Assembly: GCA_014529675.2 (NCBI GenBank)
Contig: CP076040.1
Coordinates: 186,001 to 250,000, forward strand
Reading direction: 5' to 3'
Source of the DNA: Opitutia bacterium ISCC 52
GTDB lineage: Bacteria > Verrucomicrobiota > Verrucomicrobiia > Opitutales > UBA2995
DNA length: 64,000 nt
Below, in pieces: positions 5,176 through 14,344 of this stretch. The notes beneath the pieces were generated by a model, which was not told where the DNA came from, ran no database searches, and saw only the letters and a list, made by a program, of their open reading frames with translations. Each line of letters starts with the position of its first letter. Position 1 is the stretch's first letter. The translations under genes and the position numbers were made by a program.

Positions 5176-5919
5176 TTACTGCCACACTTTCCCAATGGCC
5201 GCATCCTTTACCCAGCCTTCCTGCTTATCGGGTGTGCGGATGTAGTGGTAGGGTTCGTGGGTCTCGAGAACTTCAACCCAGGTACCGTTGGAAAGGGTGT
5301 TTAAACTGTTGGCTGATTCGGTGGGGGCGACGCGTAAGCCGGTATCAGGAATCAGGACGAGGCCACGGGAGAAATCCTGTTTCCATATCAACGCCCCTGT
5401 GATCGACATGAGCATGAGCGGAATTGCCAGGTAAAGACCTAGAGTCGGAATCGGAGACAATTTCGGTGCATACCAGATGAGGAGACCACAGACGATAATG
5501 GCTCCGGATCCGATCATCAAAAGCAGCAGCCAGGTATTGACTGGCAGGGTGTAGGCGAATTCTTGGGCGATCGAGTATTGCGGGCGTTCGAGGTCGGACT
5601 GATCAATGATCTTTTGCAAGTTGGCCAGCACATCCGGGTTGCCGGGTTCCAGAGTCAGGGCACGTTCGTAGGCGAGCAATGCTGCGGGGAAATCTTGCAA
5701 CTGGTAGTAGGCATTCCCCAGATTGAAAAGTAATGCCAGGCTGGATTTTTCGGAACTTGAAAAGGCTTTTTGGTAGGCCTCCACGGCATCCTCGTATCGT
5801 TCATCGGCAAAGGCTGCATTGCCTTCGCTGAAGAGGTTTTGCAGATCCTCAGTCTGGCCGTAAGCCAAGTGGACCGTCAAAGAAAGGAAGCTAGCTACTA
5901 GAAAACGACGGACGATCAT
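5176..5919 (-). CDS. batE: TPR and SH3 domain membrane protein, BatE-like
   Basis: 247 residues: signal peptide (about 1-21, ending AYGQ), three TPR-like helical pairs at about 24-105 (NAAFADERYEDAVEAYQKAF, LLFNLGNAYYQLQDFPAALL, ALTLEPGNPDVLANLQ), two hydrophobic helices at about 128-175, and a bacterial SH3 domain at about 185-245 (LVLIPDTGLRVAPTESANSL, EGWVKDAAIGKVW). This is the organisation of BatE at the end of Bat operons. The Bat proteins act together at the inner membrane; their biochemical role is not settled. The start ATG overlaps the end of batD by four bases, so translation is coupled. It is the last gene of the operon. Confidence 0.8.
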   Translation of the reverse strand: MIVRRFLVASFLSLTVHLAYGQTEDLQNLFSEGNAAFADERYEDAVEAYQKAFSSSEKSSLALLFNLGNAYYQLQDFPAALLAYERALTLEPGNPDVLANLQKIIDQSDLERPQYSIAQEFAYTLPVNTWLLLLMIGSGAIIVCGLLIWYAPKLSPIPTLGLYLAIPLMLMSITGALIWKQDFSRGLVLIPDTGLRVAPTESANSLNTLSNGTWVEVLETHEPYHYIRTPDKQEGWVKDAAIGKVWQ

Positions 5920-7736
5920 TTCTTCTTACCAAGCTGGCGTAAAATTGACTCCAGCTCTAACTCCTCCTTTTCAAGTGCTCCAACCGGGGCCGCATTTCCT
6001 GAGTAACGCAATACATCCACCTTGGCAAAGAATGCTTGAATGGATTGCTTGATGGTATCGTCCCCTAGTGCGGGAACCCATAATGCACCGATGTCTTTTT
6101 CGGTGATCGATTCTGGGTTACATCCTAACTGGCGTGCCAGGGCTACTTGCAATACTCGGCAGCCTGCTTGGTAGAATGCGTGAGTCTCATTGTCATTGCG
6201 TGCTTTCTGTAAATCCTTGCGGTGCTGCGCCATTTTTTGATCCAGCTCTTTCAGTCGAATACGTTCCTTGTCATTTTGAGAGGAATGACGGCTACGTCTT
6301 ATAAGAAACGCCAATCCGAGAATCCCAAGGGGAGCAATGACTCCTGCGGCGAGTGTATTTTGCACACGGGCCAGAGTGGGGGGGGTTACCGTGCTGCCCA
6401 AGGATACTTTGATGGGCAGGAAAGTATCTCCTTGGCCTTGAGACGGATTGCGGAAAGACAGTTGAGGCGTTTGAGTCTGCGGAGTTGGTAAGCTTTGTTG
6501 GGCTGCAGCTTTAATGGAAACTGGAATGACCGGCGTATTCATCTCCGAATACATGCCCGTTCTTGGATTGAAATAGGAGAATGGGATTTGCGGAACCAGA
6601 TTGATGTCTGCTGAGAGCGGAATCACCACGTATTCAAATTGCTTATTTCCGGAATAACCTTGTGTGTCGAGTTGCTCATCGAGCACGCGAGGCGGGTAGG
6701 TCTTGAATTGATCGTTTTCGGGAAAGTCTGGAGGACCCATTTGGGAAAAGTTACCCTCCCCTTCGATTCCAATTTTCAAGGTGATGGGATCTCCTTCTGA
6801 GAGGTCAGTGACATCTGCGGTGGCTGTCACGTTGAATTCCCCTATGGCGCCATTGAAACTGGCTGGCCTTCCTTCTTGCGGTAGCCCTTCGATCGTGATC
6901 TCGGCTGGCTCGCTTTCTGCCAGAATCTCTGTGTCATTGTAACGTCCGAACATGCTGTCGAAGAAAGGATCGTTAAATGCGCTGAAAGGATCTGACCGCG
7001 AACTGCGTCGGCTCTCAGGGATTCGGAGCACGTGTGCGGCTTTAAACTTAAGTGTTTGTGTCCCGGCTTTGACTGGAGTGATGCCGATCTTCCAAAGGTA
7101 GACATCGTAGTAGCGTCCATTTTTTACCGAACGGGTAATCTGTGGCTGTGTGTCGATCGGCGTTATACTAAATGCGTCGCCTTCGATTTGCGGTAGCCCT
7201 TTGTTGGGGAAAGTTGCCTGATTGAGCATGATCATTCTCAACTCAGAAGAAATGGTTTCGCCCACGTAGACATTGCGCTCTGGCAAATCAAATTCGAGCC
7301 AGGCAACTTCTTTGAGATCAATACCTGCCTCGGCCTGCTCGACCACTTCGATATCAATTTGCTCTGTGTTGTACGGCTTGCCATCGACAAAGATGGTTAG
7401 TGGAGAAATACGGAACTTACCTACCCTTTGAGGCTTCACCTGAAAGACATGAGTAATACTCACCGTCGTTTTCCCGTTCACATTCATAAACTGCGTATTG
7501 GGACCGCGGTAGGCGAATTCCATATACTCGTTACTTTCAATGGTTGGGGGCTCCGACTGTTGGCTGCCTTCAATGGTAATCTTCAGTTGTGCCGATTGTC
7601 CCAAGACCACAGGATTGGGCTCAACGACCGCACTCGCGTTGACCTGAGCCAACAAGGAATTTGCGGACATAGCGAAGGCCGGCAACAGGAACCATGCCAG
7701 CTGCTTCGTATTCAAGGCCTTTATGCTTATTCTCAT
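5916..7736 (-). CDS. batD: BatD family oxygen-tolerance protein
   Basis: 606 residues. A signal peptide (about 1-31, ending SANSLLAQ) leads into a long periplasmic region of immunoglobulin-like beta domains (NASAVVEPNPVVLGQSAQLK at the front; VYVGETISSELRMIMLNQ around residue 155; ATADVTDLSEGDPITLKIGI around residue 310). A transmembrane helix lies near residue 465 (VIAPLGILGLAFLIRR), followed by a basic coiled stretch and a cytoplasmic helical domain containing GCNPESITEKDIGALW. This is the standard BatD layout. It lies between the BatC-like repeat protein and batE, overlapping batE by four bases. Confidence 0.9.
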   Translation of the reverse strand: MRISIKALNTKQLAWFLLPAFAMSANSLLAQVNASAVVEPNPVVLGQSAQLKITIEGSQQSEPPTIESNEYMEFAYRGPNTQFMNVNGKTTVSITHVFQVKPQRVGKFRISPLTIFVDGKPYNTEQIDIEVVEQAEAGIDLKEVAWLEFDLPERNVYVGETISSELRMIMLNQATFPNKGLPQIEGDAFSITPIDTQPQITRSVKNGRYYDVYLWKIGITPVKAGTQTLKFKAAHVLRIPESRRSSRSDPFSAFNDPFFDSMFGRYNDTEILAESEPAEITIEGLPQEGRPASFNGAIGEFNVTATADVTDLSEGDPITLKIGIEGEGNFSQMGPPDFPENDQFKTYPPRVLDEQLDTQGYSGNKQFEYVVIPLSADINLVPQIPFSYFNPRTGMYSEMNTPVIPVSIKAAAQQSLPTPQTQTPQLSFRNPSQGQGDTFLPIKVSLGSTVTPPTLARVQNTLAAGVIAPLGILGLAFLIRRSRHSSQNDKERIRLKELDQKMAQHRKDLQKARNDNETHAFYQAGCRVLQVALARQLGCNPESITEKDIGALWVPALGDDTIKQSIQAFFAKVDVLRYSGNAAPVGALEKEELELESILRQLGKKK

Positions 7737-7789: not shown

Positions 7790-8839
7790 TTACCAATCCT
7801 TTTTATTGTCCTTCTTCTGATCGTTAGGATTTACGATGAAGAGAGGGAGTTTCTTTTCGTCGCCTTCCATGGCTTCCAGTAGGCGTGCAGCTTCCTCCGG
7901 TGTCATTTGCAGAGGCATAGGTTGCTCACCGCCAGGAGTTTCTTCCTCCTCATTCGGGTCCTGAGGTTGTTCTTCCTCACCGCCTTGGTCCTCCTCGTCT
8001 TCGCCCTCCTCGGGCTCTTCAGGTTCCTGAGGTTCTTCCTCTTCCTGATTTGGATCTTGGGGCTCTTCCTCTTGGTCGCCCTCATCTTCTTGGCCTTCGT
8101 TGGGATTCTGTTCGTCCTGGTTAGGATCCTGCTGATCTTCCTTTTGATCCTGGTCTTGTTGATCTTCGTTCTGATCTTGGTTGTCGTTCTGGTCCTCGTT
8201 CTGGTCTTCGTTTTGATCCTCGTTCTGATCTTCGTTTTGGTCTTGGTTCTGGTCCTGATTTTCGTTTTCGAATCGGGCTACGATGTCGTGGTCGCCATCG
8301 GCTATGATGGTTGTTTCCGGGTTTTCTTTCTCTTCCTCGCGGATGCCTTTCCCTTCCCAACCGAGGAACTTAAATCCATCATTAGGCTTAACAGAAAGAG
8401 AGACCTCCGTTCCGTCCGGGTAATCTCCGCCTCCTTTGACCTTACCTGCTTCTTTGTTGTCCGGCGCGGCAATGACATTCCAAATGCGGTTATAGTGAGC
8501 TTTGATGCTCACATGATCGTCCATGGTTACGAATGTCTTGGCTTCCTCTAGATTAGCAATCTGCTCACCTTCCCAACGCTCAAATTCGAATCCAGGATTG
8601 GGCACCACTTCGATTTGGGCATAGGAACCTGGTTTATATGAATCCTGACCAAACAGAGTTCCTTCCCAGGTCGTAGCGCCTCGATTCCTACTTTGTTCAA
8701 TGGCTTCTTCCATGGGTAGCTCGATTGCGGGCACGGCTGGTTGTTGTTGGGCGTTCGCAAAGGGAGCCGTAAGGAGGCTTCCTAGGAGGATACTTCCAAG
8801 CAGGTATCTAAAATGGGAGACTGTCCTACTGCTTCTCAT
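7790..8839 (-). CDS. BatC-like secreted protein with InlB-type repeats and acidic low-complexity tract
   Basis: 349 residues. The signal peptide ends near residue 30 (APFANAQQQ). Two InlB-like beta repeats follow at about 60-190, each with a 'GF-x-F-x-x-WEG' core (NPGFEFERWEGEQI; NDGFKFLGWEGKGI). Residues about 193-310 are almost only Asp, Glu, Asn, Gln and Pro. The C-terminus carries MTPEEAARLLEAMEGDEKK, which resembles the 'ARLLxALExDE' motif at the end of BatC proteins. BatC normally pairs a D/N/Q-rich tract and this motif with TPRs; here TPRs are absent and InlB-type repeats stand in. The start overlaps the end of batB by 14 bases. Possible role: extracytoplasmic partner of BatA/BatB (inference from context). 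Confidence 0.75.
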   Translation of the reverse strand: MRSSRTVSHFRYLLGSILLGSLLTAPFANAQQQPAVPAIELPMEEAIEQSRNRGATTWEGTLFGQDSYKPGSYAQIEVVPNPGFEFERWEGEQIANLEEAKTFVTMDDHVSIKAHYNRIWNVIAAPDNKEAGKVKGGGDYPDGTEVSLSVKPNDGFKFLGWEGKGIREEEKENPETTIIADGDHDIVARFENENQDQNQDQNEDQNEDQNEDQNEDQNDNQDQNEDQQDQDQKEDQQDPNQDEQNPNEGQEDEGDQEEEPQDPNQEEEEPQEPEEPEEGEDEEDQGGEEEQPQDPNEEEETPGGEQPMPLQMTPEEAARLLEAMEGDEKKLPLFIVNPNDQKKDNKKDW

Positions 8840-10784
8840 CTATATCAAACACGAGCTCCCTGGCTTCTTCGCAGATGACGACCACAGTGGTGTCTGCGTT
8901 CATGGTTATTTTTGTTTCAGGACTCGAACGATCCTGAATGTCTGGCCCCTCATATTGAACGAATCGCCACCCATAAGCGGATTCAAATTTGAGGTCCACT
9001 TCTTGTCCCTTGTCGTATGTTCCTGGTGATTCGGAAGTGCCTGCTTCCGGGGGAATGACAACCACACGCAGGTCCACCAGCTCGATCAAATTTGCGGTGA
9101 GTGTCTTATCGGCATCGACCAGGACGCGGGTCTTTTCTTTATCGGCAGGATCAATCCCTTCACCCACCCAGGTATCGAAACGATAATTCTCCTTATCCTG
9201 TAAGGTAACCGAAATGGATCGCTTGATTCCTTGGTCGTAGCGACCTGCGCCTTTCAATTCGACGACGTCAGGGAAATTGGAATCGAGATGAATGTCATAC
9301 ATGACCAGATATTCGATCTGGTAGTTTAGGAACTTTAAATTGGCTAGTGTTTCATCGTCCTCCGGGCGGATTACCAGGCTGCCTTCATAATACTCAGCTG
9401 CCTTGGCCCAGTCCTTCCTTGTCTCCGGCTGACGGTCAGAGATTATACCTTCCCCAATCCGGTAAGTGGCGTTGCCCATATTGTAGAGAATGTCGGCTTG
9501 TAAGTCCGGGTCTGGACTCTCCAAGGCCTGCTGAAAAACGGTGACCGCATCTGCGTATTTGCCTTGTCGATACAGAGAAATGCCCAGGTTGTAGCGAAGG
9601 CGCATGTCCGCGGGCTCTTCATCGATGGCAGCACGATAAAGCTGTTCTGCTTCAACGAACTCACCTTTGCGCAGGTGCTTCTGTGCCTTGTATGGATCAG
9701 CCTGAAGATCGGGCGTGGACATAAACACAGCTCCGAGAACTAAAAGAGACGCAACTGCTTGCTGTGTGCGTCGCTTGATGCGGGCACTCCGTCTACGAGT
9801 GCCAATCAACCATTCCAGTATCAGTAGGAAAATGCCCGCTGCCAGCACCCACTGGTAACGTTCGATGGCCTGCTTATTCATTCGCGAATTGAGTTCCTGG
9901 CGAGGGATCTCTTCCAGTCCGAGACTGTAAACCTTCTCCAGACCTTCACCGAGGGGTCCGAGAGGACTATAAAATCCATTCGAGGCCATGGAAATTTGGC
10001 GTAGGGTGTCTTCATCCAGGCGTGTTCTTACCACGTTGCCCGCTTCATCGCGCACGTAGTCCTGGCGTCCGTTTTTATCGGTATACGGAATGATTTCTCC
10101 TTCCTTGCTGCCCACTCCTAAGGTAAAGACCCGCACTCCTCGAGCGGCCGCCTGGCGTGCGGTTTCAATTCCATTTTCCTCCAGGTCTTCGCCATCGGTA
10201 ATGAGGATCAGGATCTTAAAGTTGTTTTCTTTATTAAATGCGTTCTCGGCTATCTGAATGGCAGCGGCGATGTCGGTGCCGGGTACGGGAATAACTCCAG
10301 GTTCAAGGATTTCCAGCGATTGGCGAAAGGCGTTGTAGTCGAGTGTCAGGGGGCATTGCAGAAAAGCTGAGCCAGAGAAGGCAACCAGGCCGATACGGTC
10401 GGTGCCCATCTTATCGATAAAATCTAGAACCGCTAGTTTTGCGCGCTCGAGTCGGTTGGGCCGCATATCCTGAGCTAACATACTCTTTGAAGTGTCGATC
10501 GCAAAGACGACGTCGATTCCCTTGCTCTTAACCTCCTGCCAGACGTAGCCGTATTGAGGCCGCGCAACCGCGATAACAATCAGGGCAATGCCTATGCTTA
10601 AAAGGACGGCCTTCAATTGCTTTTTTCTAGGGGAGACGGAGTCGGTGAGACTCTTAATCAGGGTAGGTGCCAGAAACTTCCCCAATTGCTTTTGTTTCCC
10701 ACGGTCCACTCGGTAGGCCCACAAAAGCATCAACGGGATCAATGCCACGGCGATGATAAATATGATGGGATAGGCAAAAGTCAT
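8826..10784 (-). CDS. batB: BatB: VWA-TPR protein with C-terminal InlB-type repeats
   Basis: 652 residues. Two N-terminal membrane helices (about 4-24 and 60-78) precede a von Willebrand factor A domain with the metal-binding MIDAS loop DTSKS near residue 95 (VVFAIDTSKSMLAQDM) and the LITDGED strand near residue 196. A third helix lies near 310-330. TPRs occupy about 370-480 (AQKHLRKGEFVEAEQLYRAA, RLRYNLGISLYRQGKYADAV). The last 150 residues hold two InlB-like beta repeats (YRFDTWVGEGIDP; YGWRFVQYEGPDI), an addition I do not know from standard BatB. The fused TPR part corresponds to what is usually BatC. It follows batA by six bases. Confidence 0.88.
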   Translation of the reverse strand: MTFAYPIIFIIAVALIPLMLLWAYRVDRGKQKQLGKFLAPTLIKSLTDSVSPRKKQLKAVLLSIGIALIVIAVARPQYGYVWQEVKSKGIDVVFAIDTSKSMLAQDMRPNRLERAKLAVLDFIDKMGTDRIGLVAFSGSAFLQCPLTLDYNAFRQSLEILEPGVIPVPGTDIAAAIQIAENAFNKENNFKILILITDGEDLEENGIETARQAAARGVRVFTLGVGSKEGEIIPYTDKNGRQDYVRDEAGNVVRTRLDEDTLRQISMASNGFYSPLGPLGEGLEKVYSLGLEEIPRQELNSRMNKQAIERYQWVLAAGIFLLILEWLIGTRRRSARIKRRTQQAVASLLVLGAVFMSTPDLQADPYKAQKHLRKGEFVEAEQLYRAAIDEEPADMRLRYNLGISLYRQGKYADAVTVFQQALESPDPDLQADILYNMGNATYRIGEGIISDRQPETRKDWAKAAEYYEGSLVIRPEDDETLANLKFLNYQIEYLVMYDIHLDSNFPDVVELKGAGRYDQGIKRSISVTLQDKENYRFDTWVGEGIDPADKEKTRVLVDADKTLTANLIELVDLRVVVIPPEAGTSESPGTYDKGQEVDLKFESAYGWRFVQYEGPDIQDRSSPETKITMNADTTVVVICEEARELVFDIDEKQ

Positions 10785-10790
10785 TTCAAG

Positions 10791-11792
10791 TTAGGGCAGG
10801 GTCTTCAGGCGTGTGTTCCCCAGTACGTATTCGAAGAGGAGGAAGAAAAGTCCGGCCAGGACTGGGTAAATGAACAGTTCGTCGTAGTAAGTGAAATTCT
10901 TTAGCTTGATTTCGGTTTTCTCGAGTTCGTCGATTTTGCCGTAAATTTCTTCGAGTTCCTCAGTATCGGTGGCCCGGAAGAATTCCCCTTGGGTTAATCG
11001 AGCAATTTCTTTGAGTGTGGGTTCATCCACGTCGGTTGGAACATTTCGGTAACGGGTCCGACCGAGGTAATCCTGCACTGGGAAGGGGGCCTTGCCTTTG
11101 GTGCCTGCCGCGATGGTGTACACTTTTACCTTAAGGGCTGCTGCTGCCTCTGCCGCTGTTACAGGTTGAATGGAGCCACTATTATTCACTCCGTCGGTGA
11201 GAAGAATCACCACCTTGCTTTTGGCTTGGAGGTTTTTTAACCGATTGGCACCCATGATCAGGGCTGAGCCAATCGCAGTTCCATCCTCTTGGATGAGGCC
11301 GATCTCCAGTCGCTCAAGATTCTTGTTCAGCCAGTCGTGGTTCAAGGTGAGTGGACTTACCAGATAGGGTTCTCCAGCAAAAGCGATGAGGGCGATGCGA
11401 TCTGCTTCCCGTTTTTCAATAAATTCTTTGATGACCTTTTTAACTACTTCCAATCGGTTGTAGCGTTTGTCTTCGATCTTGAAATCCATCGCTTGCATGG
11501 ATCCGGAAATATCAACCGCCAAGACGATATCGATACCGCTGGCTTCAATTTCCGTTTCACCGTGACCCAATCGTGGCCGTGCTAATGCGACAATCAATAG
11601 AATGAGAGCAACCGTGCGTAACAATGCCAGCCATTGTCCCGATTTGGAACCTCCATGGAATGCCAGCTTTCCTGCTAATTGCGTGTTGGAGAAGCGTATG
11701 CTTCCCTTTCGCGTCAGCCCACCGCGTAAGAACGGCAGAATGATCACTACCAGGATCAGGAAAAGAAAATAGGGATGTTGGAACTCGAGCAT
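10791..11792 (-). CDS. batA: BatA: von Willebrand factor A membrane protein
   Basis: 333 residues with an N-terminal membrane helix (LEFQHPYFLFLILVVIILPF), a second near 55-72 and a C-terminal one near 308-326. The VWA domain carries the MIDAS motif DISGS near residue 93 (LAVDISGSMQAMDF) and VVILLTDGVNNSGS near residue 195. The domain is expected to face the periplasm and bind a divalent metal ion. Typical length and layout for BatA. The stop codon of the DUF4381-like gene overlaps its start by one base, so the operon is contiguous here. Confidence 0.93.
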   Translation of the reverse strand: MLEFQHPYFLFLILVVIILPFLRGGLTRKGSIRFSNTQLAGKLAFHGGSKSGQWLALLRTVALILLIVALARPRLGHGETEIEASGIDIVLAVDISGSMQAMDFKIEDKRYNRLEVVKKVIKEFIEKREADRIALIAFAGEPYLVSPLTLNHDWLNKNLERLEIGLIQEDGTAIGSALIMGANRLKNLQAKSKVVILLTDGVNNSGSIQPVTAAEAAAALKVKVYTIAAGTKGKAPFPVQDYLGRTRYRNVPTDVDEPTLKEIARLTQGEFFRATDTEELEEIYGKIDELEKTEIKLKNFTYYDELFIYPVLAGLFFLLFEYVLGNTRLKTLP

Positions 11793-12403
11793 CAGTTCGG
11801 CGTAATGGCGTCCGGGTTATGAGTCGGGTTCTCGTCGGGTTTACCGGTGGTTTCAATAAACGTTTCAGCAGTACCATAGAGGTTTTCCATCTCTTCAGTC
11901 CCCAAGCCCCACTTGGCAAACTTGGCCAAGTCGCATTGTTCAGAGAACTCTTTCAGCTCGGTTTGCTGTTCAACGGTGAATACGTCCGTGTGTTTCGAAT
12001 CGGCAAAAAACTCTTCAGTCGTTTGCTCGGTAGCCGGTAACTTGAAGTGGGCTTCGAGAAAGCCGCGCATGATGGTTGAGACTTCCGTGCAGAAGCGCTC
12101 GGCGGTCTCCGGTTCCAGCCAATTGCGTGCTTGGCGCAAGTGGTTCAACGCGATCTCGTAGGGTGGTGGTGGTGCGAGCTCTGGCGGGCGAGTCATGCGT
12201 TTGAAAATGATGACGGCTATCCAGAAGAGTAGGGCGGCTATCACTATTCCAATGCCGATATAGAGCAGCAGCATGGGATCGAGCATAAACACTGGATCTT
12301 TGATATCCAGAATGTCTGCTTGGGAAACTTCGTTATCTTCTTGACCCATCAAGCTTCCGCTGGTCGCCAAAAGGGCAAAAAGGCTGAAACGAACTCTGCT
12401 CAT
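11792..12403 (-). CDS. DUF4381-like membrane protein of the Bat operon
   Basis: 203 residues: probable signal peptide or first helix (about 1-20), a strong membrane helix at about 46-68 (LLLYIGIGIVIAALLFWIAVI), a Pro-rich linker (RPPELAPPPPYEIAL), then a cytoplasmic helical domain whose sequence (ALNHLRQARNWLEPETAERF, IMRGFLEAHFKLPATEQTTE) matches the pattern of DUF4381-type proteins placed between DUF58 and BatA genes. Function not known. It overlaps batA by one base and the DUF58 gene by one base. The C-terminal 20 residues are rich in Pro, Asn and Asp and may be disordered. Confidence 0.75.
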   Translation of the reverse strand: MSRVRFSLFALLATSGSLMGQEDNEVSQADILDIKDPVFMLDPMLLLYIGIGIVIAALLFWIAVIIFKRMTRPPELAPPPPYEIALNHLRQARNWLEPETAERFCTEVSTIMRGFLEAHFKLPATEQTTEEFFADSKHTDVFTVEQQTELKEFSEQCDLAKFAKWGLGTEEMENLYGTAETFIETTGKPDENPTHNPDAITPN

Positions 12404-13320
12404 TAACGTCGCTTTTCCCGGGTTAAGAAAAACTCCCGGATCTTAGTGATGTAAGGTTCTCCATTATCCACGTAGATACTGTCGATGCCTAGGCGTTTGA
12501 GTGTGTCTTTAAACTCCTCGAGTTGTTTCGCGTTTTGACCTTCATAGGCTGAGCGTACGCGACTGTTACTGGTATCGAGTTCCACCAATTGACCAGTTTC
12601 CGCATCTTCTAATGTAAGGATCCCGACGTTGGGCAAGGCATACTCGCGTGGATCGGACAGTCGGACTACTATCAAGTCATGCCGGCGATCTGTCAGGCTG
12701 AGAGCCTTATACATCTCCGTATATTGGTTACGTATCTGCGCTTGGCGAAAATGATCTCTTACAAGAAAATCAGATACCAGGAATGTAACCGCTTTTCTTC
12801 GGACGATCCGATTGAGGTAGTCGAGGGCCACTTTGATGTCCGTGCCTGTCGACTTGGGTTCGAAAAAGAGAAGTTCGCGAATGATGCGCAATACGTGTTG
12901 TCTGCCCTTTTGCGGGGGGACGAATGTTTCCACCTGATCCGTAAATAGCAATAGGCCCACCTTGTCGTTGTTGCGAATGGCCGAGAACGCGAGGACGCTG
13001 GCCATTTCCGCCATCATCTCACGCTTACTTTCTTCTTGGGAGCCGTAGTCTCCTGAAGCACTGACATCCACGACCAGCATGAGAGTTAACTCCCGCTCTT
13101 CTCGAAAACGTTTTAAGTAGGCGTCGCCTGTTTTCGCAGTTACATTCCAATCAATAGCGCGAATGTCATCACCCGGAGAATAGGCACGCACATCCTCAAA
13201 GTCCATGCCCTGACCCTTGAATACTGAATTGTAATGCCCTGCCATCGCATCGGTAACCATCTTCCGGGTACGGATCTCGATCTGCCTGACCTTCTTCAGT
13301 ATCTCTCTTGGATCTTTCAT
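12403..13320 (-). CDS. DUF58 domain protein (VWA-like)
   Basis: 305 residues without membrane helices. DUF58 hallmark GMDFEDVRAYSPGDDIRAID lies near residue 40 with IDWNVTAKTGDAYLKRF just after. A VWA-like fold follows with the metal site DVSAS near residue 90 (LVVDVSASGDYGS). DUF58 proteins are cytoplasmic partners of MoxR ATPases; the MoxR gene is 34 bases upstream in the same operon. The length is normal for the family. Confidence 0.92.
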   Translation of the reverse strand: MKDPREILKKVRQIEIRTRKMVTDAMAGHYNSVFKGQGMDFEDVRAYSPGDDIRAIDWNVTAKTGDAYLKRFREERELTLMLVVDVSASGDYGSQEESKREMMAEMASVLAFSAIRNNDKVGLLLFTDQVETFVPPQKGRQHVLRIIRELLFFEPKSTGTDIKVALDYLNRIVRRKAVTFLVSDFLVRDHFRQAQIRNQYTEMYKALSLTDRRHDLIVVRLSDPREYALPNVGILTLEDAETGQLVELDTSNSRVRSAYEGQNAKQLEEFKDTLKRLGIDSIYVDNGEPYITKIREFFLTREKRR

Positions 13321-13354: not shown

Positions 13355-14344
13355 TTAAGGTACTGGAAGCGTATCCAAAATTTCCTGGACGATATCCTCG
13401 CTGGTCTTTCCTTCGGCTTCGGCTTCATAGCTTACGATGACCCGGTGGCGAAGCACATCCATGGCGATGGACTTTACATCTTGCGGGGTTACATACCCAC
13501 GACCTTGCAGGAAGGCCCAACCTTTAGCGGCCAGGGTGAGTGCGATCGTTGCCCGAGGACTACCGCCGAACTGGATGAGGGATTCCGATTGTAAATTGTA
13601 GTCAGCGGGAGAACGCGTTGCGAAAACGATATCGACGATGTAGTCTTTGATTTTGTCATCCACATAGACCTCGTTCACGACTTTGCGTGAGTTGAGGATG
13701 TCCTCGGGAGTAATGACGGCTGAGATATCTTTCATGGCCGAGGTGGTCGCCATGCGATCGAGAATTTCACGCTCTTCCTCCTTTGAAGGATAACCGATGT
13801 TGAGCTTCAGCATGAAACGGTCGACCTGCGCTTCAGGGAGCTGATAAGTGCCCTCCTGATCAATGGGGTTTTCGGTCGCGAGAACGAGGAATGGGACCGG
13901 CAGAGGATGCGTCTCATCCCCAATGGTTACTTGCCGCTCTTGCATTGCCTCCAAAAGGGCGGATTGCACCTTCGCTGGAGCCCGGTTAATTTCGTCTGCG
14001 AGAATGAGGTTCGCGAATACGGGCCCTTTCTTGGTTTCGAAGCTGTGATCCTTCGGATTGTATACCAAGGTTCCGATGATGTCGGCGGGAAGCAGATCCG
14101 GTGTAAATTGGATTCGTTGGAAATGGGCGTCGATGGCACAGGCCAATGTTCGCACGGATAGCGTCTTAGCCAGACCTGGAACCCCTTCCAGAAGGACGTG
14201 ACCGTTGGCTATGAGGCCAAGGATCAGGCGATCGACCAAATATTGCTGCCCGATGATGACCTGCCCGATAGCGGACCTAAGAGGTGAAACCCAAGCGGAA
14301 GCGGCTTGGATTTTTTCATTCAATTCGATGACGGAATTACTCAT
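13355..14344 (-). CDS. moxR: MoxR family AAA+ ATPase
   Basis: 329 residues. Walker A near residue 54 (LLEGVPGLAKT), Walker B near residue 115 (LILADEINRAP) and sensor 1 in LVLATENPIDQEGTYQLPEA near residue 152 are all present, and the C-terminal lid region is complete (GGSPRATIALTLAAKGWAFL). MoxR ATPases are thought to act as chaperones that assemble or activate VWA-domain partners. It is the first gene of the eight-gene leftward operon. The 75 bases to its right, facing the divergent AsmA-like gene, should hold the operon promoter. Confidence 0.95.
   Translation of the reverse strand: MSNSVIELNEKIQAASAWVSPLRSAIGQVIIGQQYLVDRLILGLIANGHVLLEGVPGLAKTLSVRTLACAIDAHFQRIQFTPDLLPADIIGTLVYNPKDHSFETKKGPVFANLILADEINRAPAKVQSALLEAMQERQVTIGDETHPLPVPFLVLATENPIDQEGTYQLPEAQVDRFMLKLNIGYPSKEEEREILDRMATTSAMKDISAVITPEDILNSRKVVNEVYVDDKIKDYIVDIVFATRSPADYNLQSESLIQFGGSPRATIALTLAAKGWAFLQGRGYVTPQDVKSIAMDVLRHRVIVSYEAEAEGKTSEDIVQEILDTLPVP

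Follow-up and report, generated by a model that had tools for sequence, protein, structure and literature searches.

A Bat operon in which a repeat-bearing BatB-BatC protein appears to have been split into two overlapping genes

INTRODUCTION

The window analyzed here, a stretch of 64,000 nucleotides from the 4.8 Mb, single-contig genome of Opitutia bacterium ISCC 52, contains a Bat operon in which two neighboring genes, encoding BatB and a BatC-like protein, both carry InlB-type repeats. The question raised by this locus is how such repeats came to lie on both sides of a gene border, and what they do in the Bat complex. An earlier note, made from the DNA letters, proposed that the repeats had been fused to BatB and had taken the place of the TPRs in BatC, and that they may give the complex a surface or binding role. 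Bat complexes occur widely and may finally act in oxidative or envelope stress, though a role in aerotolerance or oxidative stress is disputed even in models. No bat phenotype for oxidative stress or aerotolerance was found in L. biflexa (PMC3557215), and a batA mutant of R. anatipestifer is more sensitive (PMC11834572). Gene fusions within bat operons are known from Leptospira, Borrelia, Spirochaeta, and Francisella (PMC3557215), and for this reason the layout described below is counted as a variant of a known system and not as a new kind. A literature search in a limited collection found nothing on InlB repeats of Verrucomicrobia or on repeat-bearing Bat operons.

RESULTS AND DISCUSSION

Operon and genomic setting

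The operon runs from 14344 to 5176 of the window in the order moxR-DUF58-batA-batB-[batC-like]-batD-batE, with all genes on the minus strand, as are all features of the window given below. It opens with the genes of a MoxR AAA+ ATPase (13355..14344) and a DUF58 protein (12403..13320), both identified by Pfam, followed by a small membrane protein gene at a conserved position (11792..12403) whose likeness to DUF4381 is sub-threshold (E = 0.07). BatA (10791..11792; Pfam and NCBIfam) is a VWA protein with a DISGS MIDAS motif. The BatB gene (8826..10784, 652 aa) and the BatC-like gene (7790..8839, 349 aa), each defined by its ORF and Pfam matches, are followed by BatD (5916..7736; PF13584, 1.3e-22) and a BatE-like protein with TPR and SH3 parts (5176..5919; Pfam). 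With moxR, DUF58, batA, batB, batD, and batE co-directional, the assignment as a Bat operon made in the earlier note is borne out. The gene order from MoxR to the BatE-like TPR and SH3 protein is the same as in the Bat operons of Bacteroides fragilis (batABCDE), Leptospira, and Borrelia, and the VWA domain with its MIDAS and the BatC-type tail are alike as well; the present operon differs in that beta-grasp-like modules separate the TPRs from the BatC tail, with a break inside module 3.

The split layout is present in both genera of the family (f1) and is complete in the window genome (G000) and in G001, G002, G003, and G005; in G004 the same pair is spread over two contig pieces, and in G006 the contig stops ahead of the repeat region. 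Since four whole pairs and a contig-broken one are kept in other members of the family, the split repeat-bearing layout is neither chance nor a sequencing error. In G007, a 90% complete genome of the same genus, there is no BatB match, though PF18998 occurs in other ORFs; either the operon was lost or its contig is missing. For the L060 copy, a palindromic insert was suspected at the N-terminus but not confirmed.

The BatB protein

The BatB gene product comprises transmembrane segments, a VWA domain, TPRs, two repeat modules, and a short orphan strand (8826..10784). Its Pfam matches are VWA_2 (8.6e-23), TPR_16 (4.7e-11), and PF18998 (1.2e-9), so the TPRs do lie in BatB, as had been claimed. 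The VWA domain (residues 92-227, 10104..10511; Pfam) lies between transmembrane helices, contains the MIDAS motif DTSKS at residues 97-101, and matches the solved BatB structure 3ibs with E = 1.3e-42; the DxSxS residues D97, S99, and S101 are invariant across a 40-sequence alignment. The best NCBIfam match of the whole protein is BatB_Lepto (3.9e-38, under the cut-off of that model), and its N-terminus scores 23.8 bits with PF07584, the N-terminal domain of BatA type, against a cut-off of 25.9, which is exceeded by the BatA of the operon.

A fourth hydrophobic segment (residues 344-362, 9699..9755; hydropathy), which resembles a signal peptide, precedes the TPR region (residues 367-480, 9345..9686; Pfam). 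The separate BatC genes at L088, L089, and L147 start with a signal peptide at the site that matches this segment, which is probably what remains of a BatC signal peptide that preceded the TPRs. Two InlB-like modules follow, module 1 (residues 496-566, 9087..9299), defined by alignment and by a second, weaker PF18998 stretch, and module 2 (residues 570-639, 8868..9077), defined by alignment and by PF18998 at residues 576-635. The family reaches 38.4 bits in BatB (cut-off 23.6), in two stretches at a loose threshold and one at E 0.01. Behind module 2 lies the orphan strand ELVFDI (residues 643-648, 8841..8858), which corresponds to beta1 of a further module, module 3, in the alignment with the fused proteins described below.

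The BatC-like protein

The BatC-like product, 349 aa long (7790..8839), begins with a putative signal peptide (residues 1-30, 8750..8839), for which an n-region, a hydrophobic core, and an ANA|QQ site (...PFANA|QQQ) were recognized by eye and by hydropathy. It is followed by a linker that stands in place of beta1 of module 3 (residues 31-51, 8687..8749; alignment, a short helix in the model), by module 3 minus its first strand (residues 52-116, 8492..8686; alignment, pLDDT under 40), and by InlB-like module 4 (residues 118-190, 8270..8488; PF18998, alignment, and a confident all-beta model). PF18998 matches this protein in two stretches with 7.4e-20 and 71.2 bits, again above the cut-off of 23.6; the profile search thus agrees with the earlier note in placing InlB-type repeats in both proteins.

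The remainder is of BatC type, as the earlier note had recognized. Residues 191-305 (7925..8269) form an acidic and N/Q-rich tract by composition, with 55 D/E, 41 N/Q, and a single K/R in 115 residues, and residues 306-349 (7793..7924) form the end motif QMTPEEAARLLEAMEGDEKKLP...KKDW, of the general form LLxxMxxxEK..[KR]DW. A C-terminal BatC profile built from other families of the order matches only this ORF among the 825 frames of the window, with E = 1.2e-13. No TPR was found by Pfam in the 349 aa, the TPRs sitting in BatB, and we therefore term the protein the C-terminal part of a BatBC and not a complete BatC.

Break point between the two genes

In two other families of the order, f8 and f21, a single ORF of 895-985 aa encodes the VWA domain, the TPRs, four PF18998-type modules, the acidic tract, and the end motif; the fused protein of L062, for example, gives PF18998 at 1.5e-47 in four stretches. 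The BatB and BatC-like pair of f1 aligns end to end with this ORF. The tail of BatB, EARELVFDIDEKQ, aligns on beta1 of module 3 (e.g. PAFKLSVNLDPE in L067), and in the same co-linear alignment the BatC-like gene picks up at beta2 of that module. About 50 codons at the break are new sequence, and the signal peptide and linker of the BatC-like protein are absent from the aligned f8 and f21 proteins. When module 4 of the BatC-like protein was compared, in five species, with profiles of the single modules of the fused proteins, the module-4 profile gave 77-83 bits and those of modules 1-3 at most 60 bits; module 4 is the only module with an unambiguous counterpart, modules 1-3 being too short and too alike. 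The stop of batB and the start of the batC-like gene overlap by 14 nt (8826..8839) at a position conserved in f1: the start codon is found at the corresponding place in the other f1 species read, with an overlap of 17 nt in one. This overlap is probably a case of translational coupling.

At the sequence level, the comparison argues strongly that the two genes are the halves of one ancestral four-module BatB-BatC fusion. The idea that repeats had replaced TPRs in BatC does not survive this comparison, since what the gene encodes is the C-terminal portion of a fusion with four modules, which is intact in f8 and f21. We infer fission as the simpler direction for three reasons: the fused state is common, no signal-peptide remnant lies between modules 2 and 3 of the fused proteins, and it is BatB that carries the orphan strand. 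In the ancestral protein, four InlB-B-like beta-grasp modules would have separated the TPRs from the acidic BatC tail. A break at the beta1-beta2 turn of module 3 would then have arisen in the f1 ancestor, with an insert that introduced the stop, a second start overlapping in a different frame, and the signal peptide and linker; the BatC tail would thereby have become a separately exported periplasmic protein translated directly after BatB. Fission of a repeat-bearing BatBC, with the repeats as a periplasmic spacer and the halves kept together, is on balance the explanation that we consider probable for the locus as a whole.

Given that fusion is the rule in the order, one might suspect that the gene is truly fused and that sequencing or assembly introduced a frameshift. 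This is extremely improbable: the break, the signal peptide, and the overlap are the same in independent genomes of two f1 genera, roughly 50 codons at the break are new, both halves are under purifying selection, and no gene fused at the break site was seen in the f1 genomes.

Bat layouts across the order and the phylum

Counting the window, the operon was read at 59 loci of the order and classed with the C-terminal profile. BatB and BatC are fused at 42 of these loci, in 16 families, which makes fusion the majority state; the usual line-up is VWA, TPR, an optional linker, acidic tract, and an 'LLxxMxxxEK…KDW' end. Three loci (f6, f11, f19) have a separate BatB of 333-361 aa and a separate BatC made of signal peptide, TPR, acidic tract, and end motif. 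At seven loci the break lies downstream of the TPRs (five of f1, plus L069 of f20 and L086 of f3), and the remaining seven were left unclassed. Fused BatB-BatC proteins are also common in other orders: among 20 further loci from other orders and classes, most of them picked for long BatB frames, 17 encode a BatB polypeptide that itself ends in a tail of the DW or NW type, the other three being one wrong frame, one contig-cut locus, and one without such a tail. The BatB and BatC parts follow the same domain line in the fusion of Leptospira biflexa (PMC3557215) and in most of the Verrucomicrobiota read, from which the f1 protein differs in being split anew, downstream of the TPRs.

The repeat array has a much narrower distribution. 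When a fused f8 protein was searched against 387 genomes of the phylum, the repeat region was covered, among the matches listed, only in f1 and f21, and the other listed matches stop near the TPRs. Of 40 BatB proteins of the order, 11 match PF18998, and each of these belongs to f1, f8, or f21; a twelfth case is L133 (f21). The four-module layout, fused or split, is thus limited to three families of one order and is not a standard of the phylum, an outcome that the earlier note had left to a neighborhood survey.

Several other layouts were seen during this reading. The fused BatBC proteins of f2 (L093:2727-5159, L094:7845-10247) have SdrD_B-like beta domains between TPR and acidic tail, at the same site as the InlB-like modules of f1, f8, and f21, with scores of 25-27 bits against a Pfam cut-off of 29.7. 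The split in L069:8053-10907 (f20) and L086:7415-10071 (f3) is a different one: BatB ends in a TPR-like part, and the second gene encodes a signal peptide, a TPR-like part, the acidic tract, and the BatC end motif. Families f3 and f20 have this split in common, yet the f20 member L070 is fused. An LLxxMxxxEK..(K/R)DW-like end is found on BatC or BatBC in most of the Verrucomicrobiota read (L058-L097, L133-L171), whatever precedes it, and no Pfam or NCBIfam model matches this motif above its cut-off. In Bacteroidota, too, BatC probably closes with a KDW-like motif.

The split module 3

The orphan strand on BatB is well kept. ELVF is identical in the f1 members read, an identity reached by just 4% of the 4-residue windows in modules 1-2, and its pN/pS of 0.14 is close to that of the VWA domain (0.13), compared with 0.26-0.32 for modules 1-2, although the ELVFDI test covers six codons in a few related species. 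These codons lie just upstream of the second start, where constraint at the DNA level is possible, yet pS is high (0.96). The core of module 3 in the BatC-like protein is under purifying selection as well (pN/pS 0.28), with higher values for the linker and signal peptide (0.57-0.73, the signal peptide at 0.73).

In beta-grasp-like InlB B repeats beta1 is an inner strand, and a module that lacks it is therefore expected to be unable to fold alone. The AF2 model of the BatC-like protein, built from three sequences, has a well-formed module 4 (pLDDT 72-87), a disordered module 3 (29-37), and a helix at the linker where beta1 would be expected; the models rest on 3-4 sequences, and an alignment this shallow could on its own account for the poor module 3. 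With module 4 predicted as a beta module, the possibility named in the earlier note that neither protein would contain a beta repeat has not materialized. The BatB model is poor (mean pLDDT 41) and uninformative on modules 1-2.

With its break inside a module and a conserved strand left behind, the pair may be a natural case of split-domain re-association. Joint translation would keep the halves together, with ELVFDI completing module 3 of the partner, a split-domain complementation that we offer as a speculative reading. A natural split beta-grasp domain, strand-complemented in the periplasm, in which the covalent BatB-BatC link had become an assembled and possibly reversible one, is conceivable and somewhat doubtful. 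A comparably tentative standing is given to functionally separate halves, where BatB would anchor the TPRs and modules 1-2 and a soluble BatC-like protein would act alone, its module 3 refolded with the linker as a strand. The signal peptide of the BatC-like protein, the selection on the core of its module 3 (0.28), and the existence of the f3/f20 split with TPR-like parts on both sides all speak for such independence, but the orphan strand on BatB is conserved, the gene overlap probably couples translation of the two, and the linker is modeled as a helix and not a strand.

Surface role or periplasmic spacer

In structure, InlB B repeats are beta-grasp-like domains whose edge strands, beta2 and beta3, run parallel (PMC8900821). 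Both proteins of the pair exceed the Pfam cut-off of the corresponding family, PF18998 (Flg_new_2), and share its all-beta module; the difference is that the modules belong here to a periplasmic membrane complex, without an internalin domain or surface anchor. A PDB sequence search with the BatC-like protein returned no relative, and Foldseek with its model returned no match at E<=0.001. With VIA-align, module 4 matched SHIRT, SraP, YwfG, and the adhesion exoprotein 2kyw at Z 5-6.7, values below 8 that may reflect a common arrangement only. The likeness to SHIRT, SraP, and other stalks of Gram-positive surface proteins is one of fold, and no sequence relation is shown.

That likeness to adhesin stalk modules, and the many further PF18998 copies in large ORFs of the relatives G130, G027, G005, and G006, could be taken to mean that BatC exchanged its TPRs for adhesin-type repeats and that the Bat complex thereby took on a role at the surface or in ligand binding. 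We regard this as very unlikely. TPRs and tail are in one fused protein in relatives, so that nothing was replaced in BatC, and similar modules elsewhere in surface proteins are mostly stalks. In the window genome the three PF18998 matches at E<=0.001 all lie inside the BatB and BatC-like genes, and in G003 and G002 the family is likewise confined to the Bat operon; the repeats of the window genome therefore serve the Bat complex and not an adhesin repertoire. No internalin LRR, GW domain, or surface anchor (LPXTG) was found by Pfam in the two proteins. BB0173 of Borrelia, a BatA-like protein, is an inner-membrane protein with a periplasmic VWA domain (PMC5700661), and BatB, judged by its hydropathy, could have the same topology, which would place TPRs and repeats in the periplasm. 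A location at the cell surface has been reported for the neighboring BB0172 of Borrelia (PMC5700661), so nothing in principle keeps Bat-type VWA proteins from acting there. For the repeats of this locus the surface or adhesin role put forward in the earlier note finds no support.

The reading that we prefer is that of a periplasmic spacer. BatA and BatB would be inner-membrane VWA proteins that face the periplasm, and the repeat modules would form a semi-rigid spacer on which the BatC tail, that is, the acidic tract and the conserved LLEAME..KKLP..KDW end, extends off the membrane toward its partner. Across layouts, the stretch from the TPRs of BatB to the BatC tail is variable, being plain, extended by InlB-like or SdrD-like beta modules, or cut in various ways; the VWA/TPR end and the short terminal motif are the parts that are kept. 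Kept ends around a variable middle point to the terminal motif, which stays whatever the layout, as the working end of BatC and to the middle as a spacer.

Origin of the repeat array

A tree of six operon proteins (MoxR, DUF58, BatA, BatB, BatD, and BatE) has weak deep nodes. On this tree the placement of all repeat carriers in one clade was rejected by the AU test (p = 0.0002), so loss in f5, f11, and f18 or transfer of the array must be added to any single origin. A clade of the carriers together with f5, f11, and f18 was not rejected (p = 0.18), nor was a grouping of f1 with f8 (p = 0.117). Both one gain followed by losses and transfer of the array would accommodate these sequences. That f1, f8, and f21 acquired the array independently or through transfer among them, without common descent of the operon, draws on the rejection of the single carrier clade, and we hold it to be rather unlikely: one gain with losses in the three further families stands unrejected, module 4 of f1, f8, and f21 clusters together, and the insertion site is identical in all three families. 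Within f21, the three loci of genus g60 (L134-L136) encode a fused BatBC with a very long low-complexity tract and without visible InlB-like modules; they are unlike the other f21 genera in this, and either the array was lost, which is probable, or they represent a separate lineage.
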